46,999 bases of DNA from assembly GCA_021793405.1 (NCBI GenBank), contig JAJYSV010000029.1, positions 1 through 46,999 of the forward strand. The letters are read 5' to 3'. This DNA comes from Acidobacteriota bacterium (lineage in GTDB: Bacteria > Acidobacteriota > Terriglobia > Terriglobales > Acidobacteriaceae). Within the stretch, counting starts at the first letter, position 1, and each line of letters starts with the position of its first letter. Below are positions 6,885 through 13,802 of this stretch, in pieces. Below the pieces are notes generated by a model. The model did no database searches and was not told the DNA's origin. It saw nothing but the letters and a program-made list of their open reading frames with translations. The translations under genes were made by a program, and so were the position numbers.

Positions 6885-7443
6885 GGAATTCACCACACAC
6901 CTGGCCCGCTTGAATTGTCTTTCCTGGCCTTCGAATGCGGATGTCGCCGCAAACGGTCCCCAGAAACTCTCCACAGGGGCAGTTTGCTTGCATATTCGCC
7001 GAGTGTCAAGGCGGTCTTTCCATTGGCGTAACGAACCGGCTTCGATGGGGAGGATTTTTTCGTCCTGTGCCGGTTGGCTCAAGAGCGCGAAACTGCATCC
7101 CAGTTTCTGATATCGCTTCGCATTTGGAACAGCCACTCGACGAGGGAACCGAGGGGCTTCGGCTGGCGAGCCGCCTTGCGTCTCTGAGCGCCTTGAAATG
7201 AGGTTTCGTGAAGGGGGCGAGCCGCGCGGAATTTATGTCGGCTTTTGTAGTCGTCAAACAGGAAAGAATCTGCCCCGGCGTTCGACGGGGTTGAGTAGAC
7301 TGTCAAGGAAGGTCGAACCGGTTCGCATGCAGGATTAGAGCGCGTCCGTTGATTGCCGCGCGGGCTTTTCTTTCAAGAAAGGCTAGACGAATACCCGTTT
7401 GTGACTCGGAAGCAGGTTGCCGACCGCTCAATGCAGATCGAAA
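6885..7443. other. non-coding gap between divergent rsbW-like and mgtE-like genes
   Basis: About 560 bp with no convincing gene; several short frames overlap here but none resembles a known protein. It presumably holds the two divergent promoters. Visible structure: a perfect 12-bp palindrome CGAACCGGTTCG (7314-7325), a short hairpin CCCCG...CGGGG (about 7273-7290) and a CTTTC/GAAAG hairpin (about 7370-7381). No promoter hexamers could be placed with confidence. Confidence 0.4.
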
Positions 7444-8760
7444 ATGAGAGTGCCTGCGATGCAGCTCGACCAGACAAAAAAGGCGAATGAGCATAAAGAA
7501 GGGTCGCAGGCCAAGGACTCCATCCTTGTGCATCTGTCGCTGCTTTTGGGCAGCGCGATCCTGGACGCGGCCGGTCACTCGCTCGGTCATGTGCGGGAGG
7601 TTGCGGTCACTCCGGGAGTGCGGGCATCGCTGGTCACGGAGTTGATCTGGGGCCGCAAGGACGAACTGCAGGCAGTCGCGCCAGCGGGACTGGAGCAGAT
7701 GTCTAACGGGACATTGCGGCTGCGTGGCGATGCCCACCCCAGAGCATTCAATATGGGCGAGCCGTTGCTGCTGCTGGATCGCGACCTGATGGATCAGCAG
7801 ATTATCGACGTGCATGGAAGAAAAGTTGTTCGCGTGAACGATGTCTCCTTGTTGTGGCTGCCGCAGGAAGGTGGCGGGGAAATGCGTGCCATTGAGGTGG
7901 AAGTAGGCACGCTGGGAGCGATGCGCCGGCTGCTAAAGGGAATTTTGACCAAGCGGGCGATTGAACGGCTGACGAAAAGGATTCCATCCCGTGCCATTCC
8001 CTGGGATTTTGTGGATCTGATTGAAGTCGATCCGGCGCGCCGCGTACGGCTGAAGATTTCGCATGAACGGCTGGCGCAATTCCATCCATCCGACCTGGCC
8101 GATATTCTAGAGGACCTCGCTCCAGTCCAGCGGAAAGCCATTTTCAATTCCTTGGATGAAGAAGTGGCTGCTGAGGCTCTGGAAGAAGTGGAACCCAAGC
8201 TGCAGAGGCAACTGCTCGAATCCATGGACTCCGAACGCGCTGCGGACATTATGGAAGAGATGGATCCCAGCGCGGCCGCCGATCTCTTAGCAGAGTTGCG
8301 CAAGGAGCGGTCGGAAGAAATCCTTGAAGAAATGGAGCCGGAGGAGCGGGAAGAAGTAAAAGAGCTTTTGGAATTCAGCGAGCATTCCGCCGCGGGCCGC
8401 ATGACAACCAAATATATCGCGGTGCCGGCGGACGCTAGCGTGGCCCAGGCAATCGAAGCGCTGCGCAATTTCGACGACGATCCCGAGACGGTGACGGAAA
8501 TTTACCTTGTAAGTGAAGCGGGAGTGCTGCTGGGTGTGGTTTCGCTGGCCAGGTTGTTGCTGGCGTTGCCGGAGAGCAAAGTCGCGGTGCTCAGCGAATC
8601 CCGCTTCGTCAGTTGTCCGTCGGGAATGCACGACAAGCAGGTCGCGGAACTGTTCGATCGCTATAACTTGTATGCTCTACCCGTGGTGGAAGAGCATAAC
8701 AAGCTGGTGGGAGTGGTGAACGTGGACCAGGTCATCGCTTTTATGCGGCAACAGGCGTAG
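7444..8760 (+). CDS. soluble MgtE-like protein (PRC-barrel-like + MgtE_N + CBS pair, no membrane domain)
   Basis: A 438-residue acidic, soluble protein. Order: two PRC-barrel-like segments (about residues 38-150; 'ILDAAGHSLGHVREVAV' and 'IIDVHGRKVVRVNDVSL'), an MgtE N-terminal superhelical domain (about 205-330; 'HPSDLADILEDL', repeated E/D-rich helices) and a CBS pair (about 330-438; 'GRMTTKYIAVPADASVAQAIEAL', 'LYALPVVEEHNKLVGVVN'). In MgtE channels this cytosolic module senses Mg2+ and gates the pore; here the pore domain is absent and the gene ends after the CBS pair. A divergent Nramp lies in the same run of genes. Start uncertain (ATG 7444 or 7459). Regulatory partner of a transporter is an inference. 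Confidence 0.8.
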   Translation: MRVPAMQLDQTKKANEHKEGSQAKDSILVHLSLLLGSAILDAAGHSLGHVREVAVTPGVRASLVTELIWGRKDELQAVAPAGLEQMSNGTLRLRGDAHPRAFNMGEPLLLLDRDLMDQQIIDVHGRKVVRVNDVSLLWLPQEGGGEMRAIEVEVGTLGAMRRLLKGILTKRAIERLTKRIPSRAIPWDFVDLIEVDPARRVRLKISHERLAQFHPSDLADILEDLAPVQRKAIFNSLDEEVAAEALEEVEPKLQRQLLESMDSERAADIMEEMDPSAAADLLAELRKERSEEILEEMEPEEREEVKELLEFSEHSAAGRMTTKYIAVPADASVAQAIEALRNFDDDPETVTEIYLVSEAGVLLGVVSLARLLLALPESKVAVLSESRFVSCPSGMHDKQVAELFDRYNLYALPVVEEHNKLVGVVNVDQVIAFMRQQA

Positions 8761-8777
8761 GCGAATCACACAACAGC

Positions 8778-9884
8778 ATGGAGAATCCGCGCACATCCCC
8801 GCCAGCGGTCCCCGGTTTGCGGATTCTGTACATCGCGCCGATGAATTATGGCTGGTACGGACTCTATCGCCAGCGCAGTCTGGAGCGGCTTGGCCACACG
8901 GTTTTCCCCATCGACATCATGCACTATGAGGGGCGCGGCAATCCTGTGCTGGCGCGGGTCCGCTATCGATTGCAGGTCGGTCGCACCGTTACCCGCATGA
9001 ATGAAGACGTGCTGCGCCTGGCGCGGGAGCATCGGGTGGATGCCGTGTGGTTCGACAAGCCGCTGTTTCTTCGCGCCGCCACGCTGCGCCAACTGCGGGC
9101 CATGGGCATCGCCACCATCGATTACATGATCGACAATCCCTTTGGACCGCGGCGCGATCCAGGATTTCGCCTGTACGTGCGCACGATTCCGGAGTACGAC
9201 CTGCATGTGCAGCAGAGGGATGTCAGCGTCCAGGCATATCTCGAGCGAGGCGCGCGCCGCGTGGTCAAGGTGCAGACGGCTTTCGAGCCGAGCGTACATT
9301 TTCCTCCGCCGGCAGGTTGGTCGGACAAGGACCGCACGCGGGAAGTTTCTTTTATTGGCACACCGTATGACGAACGACCGCAATTTCTGACCGATCTGTG
9401 GCGCAAATACAATGTACCGGTCGTGATTTCCGGTCCGCGCATCTGGACGCGCAAACTGGATCGCGCCGCGTTGGCTGCGCTTTATCCGCAACCGGACGAA
9501 CTGTACGATGCCGCGTACCGCGAAGGCATCTGGCGATCGAAGATCAATCTCAGCTTCCTGACGCACGGCAATCAGGATGAATACGCGCATAAGAGCTTTG
9601 AAATCGCGGCATGCGGCGGATTCCTGCTGGCAGAACGCTCCGCGGGACATAGCGAGCGTTTCAAAGAAGACGAAGAAGCGGTGTTCTTTTCCAGCCTGGA
9701 AGAGTGCGCTGAAAAGATTCGCCTTTATCTCGACGACGAACCGGCGCGGACCCGCATTGCGGCCGCGGGACAGCGCCGGGCTGTCTCCTGCGGATATGAC
9801 AATGACACGCAGCTCGCCAAGGTCCTGGATGTTGTAACGGAATTGCTGCCGCAAATTCGCGCCGGGAGCGGGCAGCCACAATGA
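8778..9884 (+). CDS. CgeB-like glycosyltransferase
   Basis: A 368-residue soluble protein resembling CgeB/DUF3880-type GT-B glycosyltransferases. N-terminal Rossmann start 'LRILYIAPMNYGWYG' (about residues 14-28). C-terminal half has 'EVSFIGTPYDERPQFL', 'KINLSFLTHG', and the family signature 'KSFEIAACGGFLLAE' followed by 'FKEDEEAVFFSSLEECAEKI'. Donor and acceptor cannot be read from sequence. It starts 17 nt after the MgtE-like gene and its TGA overlaps the next ATG (ATGA), so it is coupled to the GMC oxidoreductase. The three-gene set suggests glycan or glycoside modification. Confidence 0.75.
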   Translation: MENPRTSPPAVPGLRILYIAPMNYGWYGLYRQRSLERLGHTVFPIDIMHYEGRGNPVLARVRYRLQVGRTVTRMNEDVLRLAREHRVDAVWFDKPLFLRAATLRQLRAMGIATIDYMIDNPFGPRRDPGFRLYVRTIPEYDLHVQQRDVSVQAYLERGARRVVKVQTAFEPSVHFPPPAGWSDKDRTREVSFIGTPYDERPQFLTDLWRKYNVPVVISGPRIWTRKLDRAALAALYPQPDELYDAAYREGIWRSKINLSFLTHGNQDEYAHKSFEIAACGGFLLAERSAGHSERFKEDEEAVFFSSLEECAEKIRLYLDDEPARTRIAAAGQRRAVSCGYDNDTQLAKVLDVVTELLPQIRAGSGQPQ

Positions 9885-11521
9885 TCGTCGACCTCGAACG
9901 CGAGCAGGTTTTGCCCGAGTTCAACGCGGACGTGTGTGTTGTCGGCGCGGGGGCGGCAGGCATCGTGCTGGCTGCGGAGTTGGCGCGTCAAGGCAAGCGG
10001 GTGCTGTTGCTGGAAAGCGGCGGCGGCAAAGAGGAAGAGGTCATCCAGAGGCTGAACAAAGCCGAACGGACCGGTCAACCCTTGAAGGCGGTCCATCCGG
10101 GTCGCTTTCGCGCGCTGGGCGGGACAACCATACGGTGGGGCGGCCAGATTCAGGAGATGCAGGAGCAGGATTTCGAGTCCCATGCCGGAATTCCGGGCAG
10201 CGGCTGGCCGATTTCCAAGTCTGCTCTGGAGCCGTACTATCAGCGCGCGCTCCACGCCGAAGGTCTGTTGCCTGTGTTGCAGACCGATGGACAGGTGTGG
10301 CGGCAAATTGGAAGCATCGCGCCCGACTTTGGCGAATGGCTTGTCCCCTATTTCACCCGCTGGTGCCCGGAACCAAACTTCGCCCGCCTCTACCGCGACA
10401 CGCTTGCATCCCCAAATATCTGCGTAGTGTTGCACGCAACGGTTTGCGGGCTGTTGATGGATGTCGCGGGCGATGCTGTCACGAGCGTGCGCTGCCGGAA
10501 TTTCGCGGGCAACGAACAAGTCTTCAACGCTGCCAGTTACGTACTTTGCCTGGGAATGGTGGAGACTATCAACTTGCTGTTGCAGCCTTTGGCGAGCGGG
10601 CACATTGCCCCGTGGCAGCAAAATAAATGGCTAGGGCGGCATGTGCAAAGTCACATCGACTACAACGCCGCCCGGGTGGTCGCCATCGATCGAAAGAAGC
10701 TGGAGCGAGTGTTTCCCAATATCTATCTCAAGGGAAGAAAATATCATCCGAAGCTTCGCATCGCTGCCGAGCGGCAGCGCGAGGAAGGCATCCTCAACAT
10801 TGCCGGAGCGATTTCTTTCATCAGCATCGGGAACGTGGAACAGGATGTGCGCCAGATGAAGTCGGCGGCGCGGAACCTACTACGCGGCAACTGGTCGGCG
10901 ACCGGTGTGCGCGATACGATACCGGCATTGCGGCGGCTGCCTATCCTGCTGCAGTTGGCTTATAGCTTTTATGTCAGCCATCGCGCGTACTGGCCCAAGG
11001 ATGTCACGTATTGGTTACGGGTCCATTGCGAGCAGGAGCCGCTGTCGGCCAGCAGCATCACCCTGTTGCCGCAACGCGATGCGCTGGGAATGTTCCGCAG
11101 TCGCATCGATTGGCAGGTGTCGCCGCTGGAGTGGAAGACGATTCGGCGCTTTACAGAAATGGTTCAGAACGCATTGCAGACGGCGGGATTGGCGACACTG
11201 GAGCCGCAGCCGGAGTTGACGCTGGAAGATGGGTATCGCAGCGTGACGTTCGATGATAGTTACCACTGGATGGGCGGGACGCGCATGGCTACGAGCGCCG
11301 CCGAGGGCGTCGTCGATACCGACTTGAAGTTATTCGGCGTGAGGAATGCTTACGTATGCAGCGCTTCGCTCTATCCGACCTCCGGATTTGCGAACCCGGT
11401 GCATACCCTGCTGGCGCTGGCGATTCGTCTGGCCGATCATCTGGTGGTTGGTCTGTCCTGCAGCAACTTTCCGGCAACTGTTTCTGACGACGCTGCTCCG
11501 CGGGTGCGAGTCGATGCTTGA
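9881..11521 (+). CDS. GMC-family FAD-dependent oxidoreductase
   Basis: A 546-residue flavoprotein. Dinucleotide-binding 'VGAGAAG' at residues 21-27 with following 'VLLLESGGG', GMC signature-like 'RALGGTTIRWGGQ' near 78-90, and a C-terminal GMC domain with active-site candidates H462 ('YHWMGGTRMA') and N505 ('GFANPVHTL'). GMC enzymes oxidise alcohols or sugars; the substrate here is unknown. It overlaps the glycosyltransferase by 4 nt and the aldo/keto reductase by 8 nt (ATGCTTGA, 11514-11521). No signal peptide, so cytoplasmic. Confidence 0.8.
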   Translation: MIVDLEREQVLPEFNADVCVVGAGAAGIVLAAELARQGKRVLLLESGGGKEEEVIQRLNKAERTGQPLKAVHPGRFRALGGTTIRWGGQIQEMQEQDFESHAGIPGSGWPISKSALEPYYQRALHAEGLLPVLQTDGQVWRQIGSIAPDFGEWLVPYFTRWCPEPNFARLYRDTLASPNICVVLHATVCGLLMDVAGDAVTSVRCRNFAGNEQVFNAASYVLCLGMVETINLLLQPLASGHIAPWQQNKWLGRHVQSHIDYNAARVVAIDRKKLERVFPNIYLKGRKYHPKLRIAAERQREEGILNIAGAISFISIGNVEQDVRQMKSAARNLLRGNWSATGVRDTIPALRRLPILLQLAYSFYVSHRAYWPKDVTYWLRVHCEQEPLSASSITLLPQRDALGMFRSRIDWQVSPLEWKTIRRFTEMVQNALQTAGLATLEPQPELTLEDGYRSVTFDDSYHWMGGTRMATSAAEGVVDTDLKLFGVRNAYVCSASLYPTSGFANPVHTLLALAIRLADHLVVGLSCSNFPATVSDDAAPRVRVDA

Positions 11522-12503
11522 GAGAATTGCATTGCCCGGCGGCGGCCGCGCAAGCACTCGGCTTGGATTTGGCGGCTCGGGCCTGATGGGCGGTTTGAGC
11601 GAGCGGGAATCGCTGATTCTCTTAGAGACGGCGTTTGAAGCGGGAATTCGCCACTTCGATGTGGCGCCGTCCTATGGTCATGGCCAAGCGGAGCGATGCC
11701 TGGGAAAATTTTTGCGTGGGAAAACGGAGCAGGTCACGGTCACCACAAAATACGGTATCCTCCCACCCGCGCAGGCTGGTCTGCTGGGAGTTGCGCGGGG
11801 TATTATGCGCCCCGCCCTTCGACGGCTCCCCGCAGTCCGTAAGCGGGTGGCGCGGGCGGCGGCCGGGCTGAAGACCCAAGCGCGTTTTTCAGCGGACGAA
11901 GCGCGGCGATCGCTCGATCGCAGTTTGCGGCATCTAGGCATTGCTCGCGTCGATGTGTGGCTGCTGCATGAAGCGACGGCAGACAATCTCGACGATTCCG
12001 ACCTGTTGCCATTTCTTCAGAACATGCGGCAGCAGGGCCGCATAGGAATCTATGGAGTGGGTACAGAGCGCAGGCAGGTGGATGCAGTTTGGCAGAGGCA
12101 TCCCGGTTACTGTCCCGTGCTACAGTTCGAGTGGTCCGTACTGGATAACGAAGCCGAATTTCCCGGTGCATTTTTCATCCACCACCGCGCTGTTTCAGGA
12201 GCCATGGGTGCGATACAGAATGCCTTCGAGCGCAACGCTGAGATGTGCGGCCGCTGGTCGAATGCGGTGGATGCAAACCTGGCCGAGCCGCAAATTCTTG
12301 CCGCAGTTCTATTGCAGGCCGCTCTGGCATCAAATCCCAACAGCATGGTGTTGTTTTCCTCGCGCGTCCCGGCGCACATTCGTGCCAATGTTCGCGGCAT
12401 AGAAGATCCTGCATCGGTCGCTCGTGGGAAGCGTTTTCTGGAACTGGTCGCTGAAGGACGTGACTGGATGGGCGAACGGGCTGAAAAGGGCCCACGCACT
12501 TGA
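11514..12503 (+). CDS. aldo/keto reductase
   Basis: A 329-residue AKR-superfamily enzyme with the catalytic tetrad: D49 and Y54 ('FDVAPSYGHGQAE'), K79 ('TTKYG'), H152 ('LLHEA'). Between the Lys and the next strand there is a longer, Arg-rich insertion (about residues 84-125) than in typical AKRs. Start ATG 11514 lies inside the end of the GMC gene; the frame is open further upstream but there it only shadows that gene. Together with the glycosyltransferase and GMC enzyme it could interconvert an alcohol and a carbonyl on a sugar; this is inference. Confidence 0.8.
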   Translation: MLERIALPGGGRASTRLGFGGSGLMGGLSERESLILLETAFEAGIRHFDVAPSYGHGQAERCLGKFLRGKTEQVTVTTKYGILPPAQAGLLGVARGIMRPALRRLPAVRKRVARAAAGLKTQARFSADEARRSLDRSLRHLGIARVDVWLLHEATADNLDDSDLLPFLQNMRQQGRIGIYGVGTERRQVDAVWQRHPGYCPVLQFEWSVLDNEAEFPGAFFIHHRAVSGAMGAIQNAFERNAEMCGRWSNAVDANLAEPQILAAVLLQAALASNPNSMVLFSSRVPAHIRANVRGIEDPASVARGKRFLELVAEGRDWMGERAEKGPRT

Positions 12504-12507
12504 GGGT

Positions 12508-12560
12508 GCAGGTGCGGATGTTTACCACAATCGTGTACCCTGAAACATCCGGAGACCTGC
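12508..12560 (+). promoter_or_regulatory. leader inverted repeat enclosing the Nramp Shine-Dalgarno
   Basis: Nested perfect inverted repeats fill the gap between the aldo/keto reductase stop and the Nramp start. GCAGGT (12508-12513) pairs with ACCTGC (12555-12560), and GGATGTTT (12516-12523) pairs with AAACATCC (12543-12550). The apical part can add CAC/GTG. The Shine-Dalgarno GGAG (12551-12554) sits in the internal loop between the two helices, and ATG 12561 follows the last paired base. As RNA this would be a 14-bp interrupted hairpin able to limit ribosome access. A DNA operator is an alternative reading. Confidence 0.6.
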
Positions 12561-13802
12561 ATGAAGCGACGCTGGAAGACCCAATTCGTTTTGTTTCTTG
12601 CGGTCCTCGGGCCCGGCATTATTACCGCCAACGTCGATAACGACGCGGGCGGCATCCTGACCTATTCGCAGGCAGGCGCGCAGTTCGGCTACATGCTGTT
12701 GTGGACGATGATTCCCATCACGCTGGCGCTGGTTGTGGTGCAGGAGATGTGCGCGCGCATGGGCGCGGTGACGGGCAAGGGATTGAGCGACCTGATCCGC
12801 GAAGAATTCGGGCTGCGCATCACGTTCATCATGATGATCCTGCTGGTCATCGTGAATTTTGGCAATGTGATCGCCGAATTTTCCGGCATCGCCGGCAGCA
12901 TGCAGTTGTTTCACATCAGTAAATATATTTCCGTCCCCGTTTGCGCCACGCTGGTGTGGCTGCTGGTGGTCAAGGGCGACTACAAGGGCGTGGAAAAGAT
13001 ATTTTTGCTGGCCTCCGCTTTTTACATTGCGTACATTGCCGCGGGGGTTCTTGCCGGACCCGACTGGCATACCGCGCTGCTGGCCACGGTCAAACTTCCT
13101 CCGCGCCCGATTTGGCACAAATCGTCCTACATTTACATGGTCGTCGGAGTCATCGGTACGACCATCGCGCCATGGATGCAGTTTTATCTTCAGTCCTCTG
13201 TGGTCGAGAAGGGGATCAACGTCAAGCAGCTGGGGGCCTCGCGACTGGACGTAATAATCGGCTCGTTTTTTACCGACATTGTGGCCTGGTTCATCATTGT
13301 GGCCTGCGCGGCCACGCTGTTCGTGCATGGCCTGGGGGCGATTCAGGTACCGTCGGACGCGGCAGAAGCCATGAAGCCGCTGGCCGGGCAATATGCCTTC
13401 ATTCTGTTCGCGGCGGGGTTGTTCAATGCATCGTTGTTTGCCGCCTCCATCCTGCCGCTTTCGACCGCATATACGGTATGCGAAGGCATGGGGTTTGAAT
13501 CCGGTCTGGACAAGCGCTTCAGCGAAGCGCCCGCCTTCTACTGGCTGTATACGCTGCTGATCGCAGCCGGGGCCGGGGTGGTGTTGTGGCCGCACTTTCC
13601 GCTGGTGAAGGTGACGATCCTTTCGCAGGTGCTTAACGGCGTTCTGTTGCCTGTGGTGATGATCCTGATGCTGGTGCTGATCAACAAGCCGGAGCTGATG
13701 GGGAAGCACACGAATAACCGCTGGTTCAATGTCATTGCATGGGCCACGGCGATCATCGTGATCGGATTGTCGGTCGCGATGCTGTTTGCGCAAGGCAGCT
13801 AA
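12561..13802 (+). CDS. divergent Nramp/SLC11-family divalent cation transporter
   Basis: A 413-residue polytopic protein, about 11 membrane spans, that aligns with Nramp around TM1 ('GPGIITANVDNDAGG') and TM6 ('GVIGTTIAPWMQFYLQSS'). In TM1 the canonical metal-binding DPGN becomes D28-A-G-G31, so Asp stays but Asn is lost. In TM6 the canonical A-x-x-M-P-H becomes T200-T-I-A203-P-W, so the soft-metal Met is lost. Loss of that Met is a feature of Nramp-related Mg2+ transporters (NRMT), so Mn2+/Fe2+ should not be assumed. It is preceded by the leader hairpin (12508-12560). Its stop overlaps the convergent NUDIX stop by 4 bp. Confidence 0.8.
   Translation: MKRRWKTQFVLFLAVLGPGIITANVDNDAGGILTYSQAGAQFGYMLLWTMIPITLALVVVQEMCARMGAVTGKGLSDLIREEFGLRITFIMMILLVIVNFGNVIAEFSGIAGSMQLFHISKYISVPVCATLVWLLVVKGDYKGVEKIFLLASAFYIAYIAAGVLAGPDWHTALLATVKLPPRPIWHKSSYIYMVVGVIGTTIAPWMQFYLQSSVVEKGINVKQLGASRLDVIIGSFFTDIVAWFIIVACAATLFVHGLGAIQVPSDAAEAMKPLAGQYAFILFAAGLFNASLFAASILPLSTAYTVCEGMGFESGLDKRFSEAPAFYWLYTLLIAAGAGVVLWPHFPLVKVTILSQVLNGVLLPVVMILMLVLINKPELMGKHTNNRWFNVIAWATAIIVIGLSVAMLFAQGS

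Follow-up and report, generated by a model that had tools for sequence, protein, structure and literature searches.

The window, that is, the whole 46,999-nucleotide stretch of DNA analyzed here, carries at 12561-13802 on the forward strand an intact open reading frame (ORF) with an ATG start, encoding a 413-residue protein of the Nramp family (Pfam Nramp, E 6.3e-96). We name the gene nrmT, for Nramp-related magnesium transporter (NRMT), from the combination of ORF translation, Pfam, PDB sequence match, alignment, tree and Foldseek. Checks of the ORF and its translation ruled out a frame or coordinate error at this position. nrmT closes a same-strand run headed by a gene for a soluble protein with an MgtE N-domain (MgtE_N, E 1.4e-26) and CBS match (E 3e-14) and without the MgtE membrane domain. 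This MgtE fragment spans 7417-8760 on the forward strand, with a start perhaps at 7459; its description also draws on an alignment of 14 relatives, and it matches the cytosolic domain of T. thermophilus MgtE at E 7.1e-31. A PRC-barrel match at its N-terminal side is sub-threshold (19.5 bits, cut-off 21.2). Three forward-strand genes, each described from its ORF and domain match, lie between the fragment and nrmT: a glycosyltransferase-like gene (Glyco_trans_1_2, 8778-9884) after a 17-base gap, a GMC-type FAD oxidoreductase (9881-11521) overlapping the preceding gene by 4 bases, and an aldo/keto reductase (11514-12503; longest ORF from 11346), the ATG at 11514 lying within the last bases of the GMC gene. 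A 57-base gap separates the aldo/keto reductase gene from nrmT.

Conservation and control of the gene run

A same-strand MgtE-N fragment gene near the transporter gene, here with three genes between, is a common, though not universal, trait of NRMT-type genes. Shin et al. (2014, PMC4072509) describe the fragment as a common nrmT neighbor and propose that it exerts feedback regulation. Among 80 relatives (L006-L085), an MgtE fragment on the same strand lies upstream of the transporter gene in 53, as far as the sequence around each gene extends. A separate count, which also happens to concern 53 loci, takes those L006-L085 loci having at least 7.9 kb upstream; here the upstream same-strand fragment is present in 41, and none was found upstream in the other 12. 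The glycosyltransferase, GMC oxidoreductase and aldo/keto reductase (8778-12503) intervene variably: 25 of the 53 fragment-bearing loci have none of these three genes, 19 have the glycosyltransferase only and 9 have all three.

Riboswitch control by a known family was rejected, as no match in the window rose above the gathering score; the sole match in positions 7000-12600 was to another family and no better than chance, and no M-box riboswitch was found in the window or in the genome. In this respect the window gene is unlike the Clostridium acetobutylicum NrmT genes (Ca_c0685, Ca_c3329), which are under M-box control; by description they share its clade, and two genes of the Ca_c0685 operon together make up an MgtE-N homologue (PMC4072509). 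The M-box marks only a subset of NRMT genes. Among the papers listed, judged by title and abstract, none other than Shin et al. 2014 was recognized as dealing with acidobacterial NRMTs or the MgtE fragment.

Metal-site residues and kinship with EleNRMT

Site residues were compared across 149 rows aligned with MAFFT, made up of 146 profile hits together with the window protein, EleNRMT (the Eggerthella lenta Nramp-related Mg2+ transporter; PDB 7QIA/7QIC/7QJI/7QJJ) and D. radiodurans MntH (DraNramp). Inspection of the alignment reveals that D28-A-G-G31 in TM1 (12642-12653, forward strand) falls without gaps on the canonical DPGN, and T200-T-I-A203-P-W205 in TM6 (13158-13175, forward strand) likewise on the ATVMPH of DraNramp (canonically A-x-x-M-P-H), which rules out that the canonical motifs lie at some other position of the chain. 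The coordinates, residues and gapless TM1/TM6 alignment given in the initial annotation were therefore right. Relative to DraNramp, the Asp is kept as D28, while G31 replaces the Asn, T200 the Ala, A203 the Met and W205 the first TM6 His; TM3 Glu106 and TM10 Gln356 are retained. EleNRMT has the same letters in both motifs (D55 and G58; T224 and A227).

The window protein passes the general NCBIfam model NF037982, 'Nramp family divalent metal transporter' (70.2 bits, cut-off 50), and does not pass the MntH subfamily model (137.5 bits, cut-off 430). In the alignment it has neither the canonical MntH/Nramp combination of DxxN in TM1 with A/CxxM in TM6 nor DxxN-AxxT, the motif of plant Al3+ NRATs (PMC8806188). 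With canonical MntH/Nramp proteins (DraNramp, ScaDMT, EcoDMT) it shares the Nramp fold and the TM1 Asp; unlike them, it is without DPGN, A-x-x-M-P-H, the TM6 His and the TM3 Asp. The initial view that this is not a canonical Mn2+/Fe2+ Nramp, in which Mg2+ was named among the options, is thus upheld by the alignment and the MntH model. The motif present, DxxG in TM1 with TxxA/T in TM6, is that published for the NRMT clade, in which both Asn and Met are lost (eLife 2022, PMC8806188). Since EleNRMT carries the identical DAGG and TTIAPW, the double loss is an NRMT hallmark. The initial annotation had assumed that NRMTs lose only the Met, which is mistaken, and had read the further loss of the Asn as a sign of a clade outside the NRMTs with unknown selectivity, which the published motif and EleNRMT contradict. 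It had also stated that only the TM1 Asp remains. The canonical Asn and Met are indeed gone and D28 is kept, but that statement omits T200, at the place of EleNRMT Thr224, whose hydroxyl is an added ligand, and Q356, the equivalent of Gln379, which EleNRMT needs for transport (PMC8806188). The protein is therefore ordinary, its explanation is already in print, and taken alone it contributes little.

Across the 149 rows, in which some genes appear more than once (nrmT of the window three times), TM1 reads DxxG in 125, of which 116 have TxxA or TxxT in TM6, 8 have TxxS and 1 has AxxA. The rows without DxxG comprise 14 with canonical DPGN and 10 others. Exact DAGG/TTIAPW occurs in 40 rows, EleNRMT counted, so the signature is not a product of chance or a frame artefact. 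A degenerate or non-functional Nramp whose metal site was lost by drift could account for the missing canonical ligands, the sole point in its favor, but the ORF is intact and the site is conserved: across 27 aligned rows, paralogues among them, D28, E106 and P204 never vary, and conservation at T201, W205 and Q356 is 90% or higher. Moreover, matches at E below 1e-100 occur in 230 of 250 Acidobacteriaceae genomes, the remaining 20 including some incomplete ones, and we give degeneration practically no credence. At E up to 0.001, a Nramp-type match is present in 249 of the 250, a count that includes canonical Nramps and paralogues.

The top PDB sequence match is EleNRMT (7qia, E 3.8e-108). The best D. 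radiodurans MntH chain reaches E 9e-26 (8e6i, by title a Met-to-Ala mutant), and the wild-type chain 8e5s reaches E 4.5e-25. Identity over aligned columns is 47.5% to EleNRMT and 25.8% to DraNramp. A maximum-likelihood tree was built from 44 of the 149 rows, with EleNRMT as its sole characterized NRMT. In it, the window protein lies on the EleNRMT/acidobacterial side, apart from the DPGN/MPH clade (14 rows, 100/100 support); support is 93/68 at the fork uniting EleNRMT with the acidobacterial rows. The tree hence places the protein with the NRMTs. An AlphaFold model built from 27 sequences (mean pLDDT 82.3, pTM 0.86) has EleNRMT as its first Foldseek match (TM 0.89, 47% identity), which bears out the fold. 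The model breaks TM1 at residues 27-28 and, by DSSP, renders TM6 as a continuous helix; it thus fails to reproduce the unwound TM6 site, and it cannot by itself show that site. The initial proposal of a separate Nramp clade whose substrate would be new, be it another hard cation or a non-metal, drew on the absence of both canonical ligands. EleNRMT, however, binds and transports Mg2+ and Mn2+ with the same letters, and the tree groups the window protein with its clade, leaving that proposal highly improbable. The initial annotation had set against its own claim any homologue of like signature that carries Mn2+, and EleNRMT is such a homologue in part, as it carries Mg2+ also.

Mg2+ or Mn2+ as cargo

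The sequence, site residues, clade, gene order and co-occurrence are shown here; from them we infer that the nrmT product is most likely an NRMT: a LeuT-fold Nramp-family carrier that imports Mg2+, can carry Mn2+ and is probably not proton-coupled. EleNRMT is reported to transport Mg2+ and Mn2+, not Ca2+, and to show no H+ coupling; its pocket is widened by the Asn-to-Gly and Met-to-Ala replacements together with main-chain shifts, such that Mg2+ keeps much of its water shell (PMC8806188). By analogy, Asp28, the added Thr200 hydroxyl and a main-chain oxygen would face a widened pocket in the window protein, where Gly31 instead of Asn and Ala203 instead of Met would leave room for an ion keeping much of its water shell, an arrangement that would suit Mg2+. 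Transport would run down the electrochemical gradient, and proton coupling is probably absent because the TM6 histidines and the TM3 Asp are gone. Among the proton-path positions, W205, L210 and V103 are replacements and the TM3 E106 is kept. In the alignment, W205 stands at the place of DraNramp His232 and V103 at that of Asp131. The Arg pair of TM9, where the alignment is less sure, reads R/R in DraNramp, Y/W in the window protein and K/S in EleNRMT, so the window protein and EleNRMT do not match cleanly in this stretch of the proton path. Overall, the window protein resembles EleNRMT in DAGG and TTIAPW, the Thr ligand, the TM3 Glu, the TM10 Gln, the lack of TM6 histidines and the fold. It differs in the TM9 pair, in L210, where EleNRMT has Asn, and in overall sequence identity.

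A protein encoded in genome G047 (L126, 5927-7165), which is presumably the A. capsulatum NrmT, is 70.9% identical to the window protein. Its TM1 reads DPNG, the Asn lying one position N-terminal to its canonical location, whereas the window TM1 reads DAGG as in EleNRMT. Neither CorA nor the MgtE membrane domain was found in G047. Shin et al. (2014, PMC4072509) report that Acidobacterium capsulatum NrmT (ACP2977) fully rescued a Mn2+-uptake mutant and rescued a Mg2+-uptake mutant only with low-millimolar Mg2+, that co-adding the A. capsulatum MgtE fragment (ACP2976) did not help the rescue, and that this NrmT is likely a Mn2+ transporter. The window protein is like A. capsulatum NrmT in bacterial family, in sequence and in having an MgtE-like fragment upstream; in A. 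capsulatum, by contrast, the fragment is adjacent to the gene, TM1 is DPNG and rescue favored Mn2+. The complementation, the close identity of the probable A. capsulatum protein and the Mn2+ transport by EleNRMT itself would all fit an NRMT by descent that mainly imports Mn2+, with the MgtE fragment responding to Mn2+. Against this stand the DPNG of L126 versus the EleNRMT letters of the window protein, a canonical DPGN/ATVMPH Nramp (L001) also encoded in the window genome, and the failure to find CorA or the MgtE membrane domain in the window genome or G047. On balance we judge principal import of Mn2+ to be unlikely. From the sequences, it is possible that the published Mn2+ rescue would concern the DPNG type, and DPNG versus DAGG is a possible reason for the difference.

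The proposal that nrmT serves Mg2+ import was also set against the complement of Mg2+ transporters. A profile search of the window genome found no CorA and no MgtE membrane domain, and its single MgtE_N domain is the window's own fragment. The NRMT is not the sole candidate Mg2+ route, since the genome also has one MgtA-type P-type ATPase over the cut-off (808.1 bits versus 610.75) and two CNNM matches. Also weighing against the proposal are the lack of an M-box, the pass of the general Nramp model NF037982 and the 12 fully flanked relatives in which no upstream fragment was found. In a sample of 60 Acidobacteriaceae genomes with at least 95% completeness, CorA occurs in 12 (one at just 29 bits), while 8 genomes have the MgtE membrane domain, 7 of them over the cut-off. 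MgtE_N occurs in 58, counted as domain matches and thus including full-length MgtE in the few genomes having it. Strong NRMT matches, at E 1.6e-152 or better, are present in 58 of the 60. The exceptions are G043 and G072, with best E values of 1.0e-48 and 1.7e-66; this pair alone lacks MgtE_N, and each of the two encodes CorA (E 4.7e-61 and 1.4e-66). If kinship is ignored, the same pair would be drawn by chance 1 time in 1770, and both would have CorA 66 times in 1770; the joint absence may be one loss event through kinship.

Although it is a correlation only, this co-occurrence favors an NRMT and MgtE fragment acting together, with Mg2+ as cargo. The soluble protein encoded first in the run, with its MgtE N-domain and CBS match, is probably a sensor of cytosolic Mg2+ that adjusts carrier activity. 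More tentatively, and with some doubt on our part, a detached soluble MgtE sensor in Acidobacteriaceae might gate an unrelated LeuT-fold NRMT, the pair forming the main Mg2+ importer in replacement of CorA and MgtE. What is new relative to the 2014 feedback proposal is the replacement pattern across the 60 genomes, which bears on a point left open in the literature, namely the ion served by acidobacterial NrmTs, Mg2+ or Mn2+, and the role of the MgtE fragment. The occurrence of an NRMT together with an MgtE fragment in genomes that mostly lack CorA and MgtE merits more attention than the gene itself.

Paralogues and variant sites

The DPNG form of TM1 defines a sub-group (L126, L028, L031, L038, L040, L127 and L128) that accounts for 12 of the 149 rows, with the Asn shifted by one place and a Gly at the Asn place. 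Several other Acidobacteriota Nramp homologues (L143, L149, L152, L154 and L155) read GPGT/TTVVPY, so that even the TM1 Asp is missing; judging by these motifs, they are perhaps not divalent-metal carriers.

The window genome encodes two further paralogues. The second NRMT-like protein (L003; G000:C73:2578-3621, minus strand) has NDAGA in TM1 and TTIAPW in TM6; with Ala, not Gly, at the Asn place, it falls outside the published DxxG-TxxA/T motif, and its best PDB match is EleNRMT (E 9.9e-65). The third (L004; G000:C81:41531-42550, plus strand) reads DVGS in TM1 and AVIMPW in TM6, keeping the Met and losing the Asn and His, and has Glu at the conserved TM10 Gln. It sits on a long branch near the NRMTs, with EleNRMT as its best PDB match (E 4.2e-46), and known motifs offer no guide to its ion. 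The sites of these two paralogues are stranger than that of nrmT and deserve more attention than nrmT.
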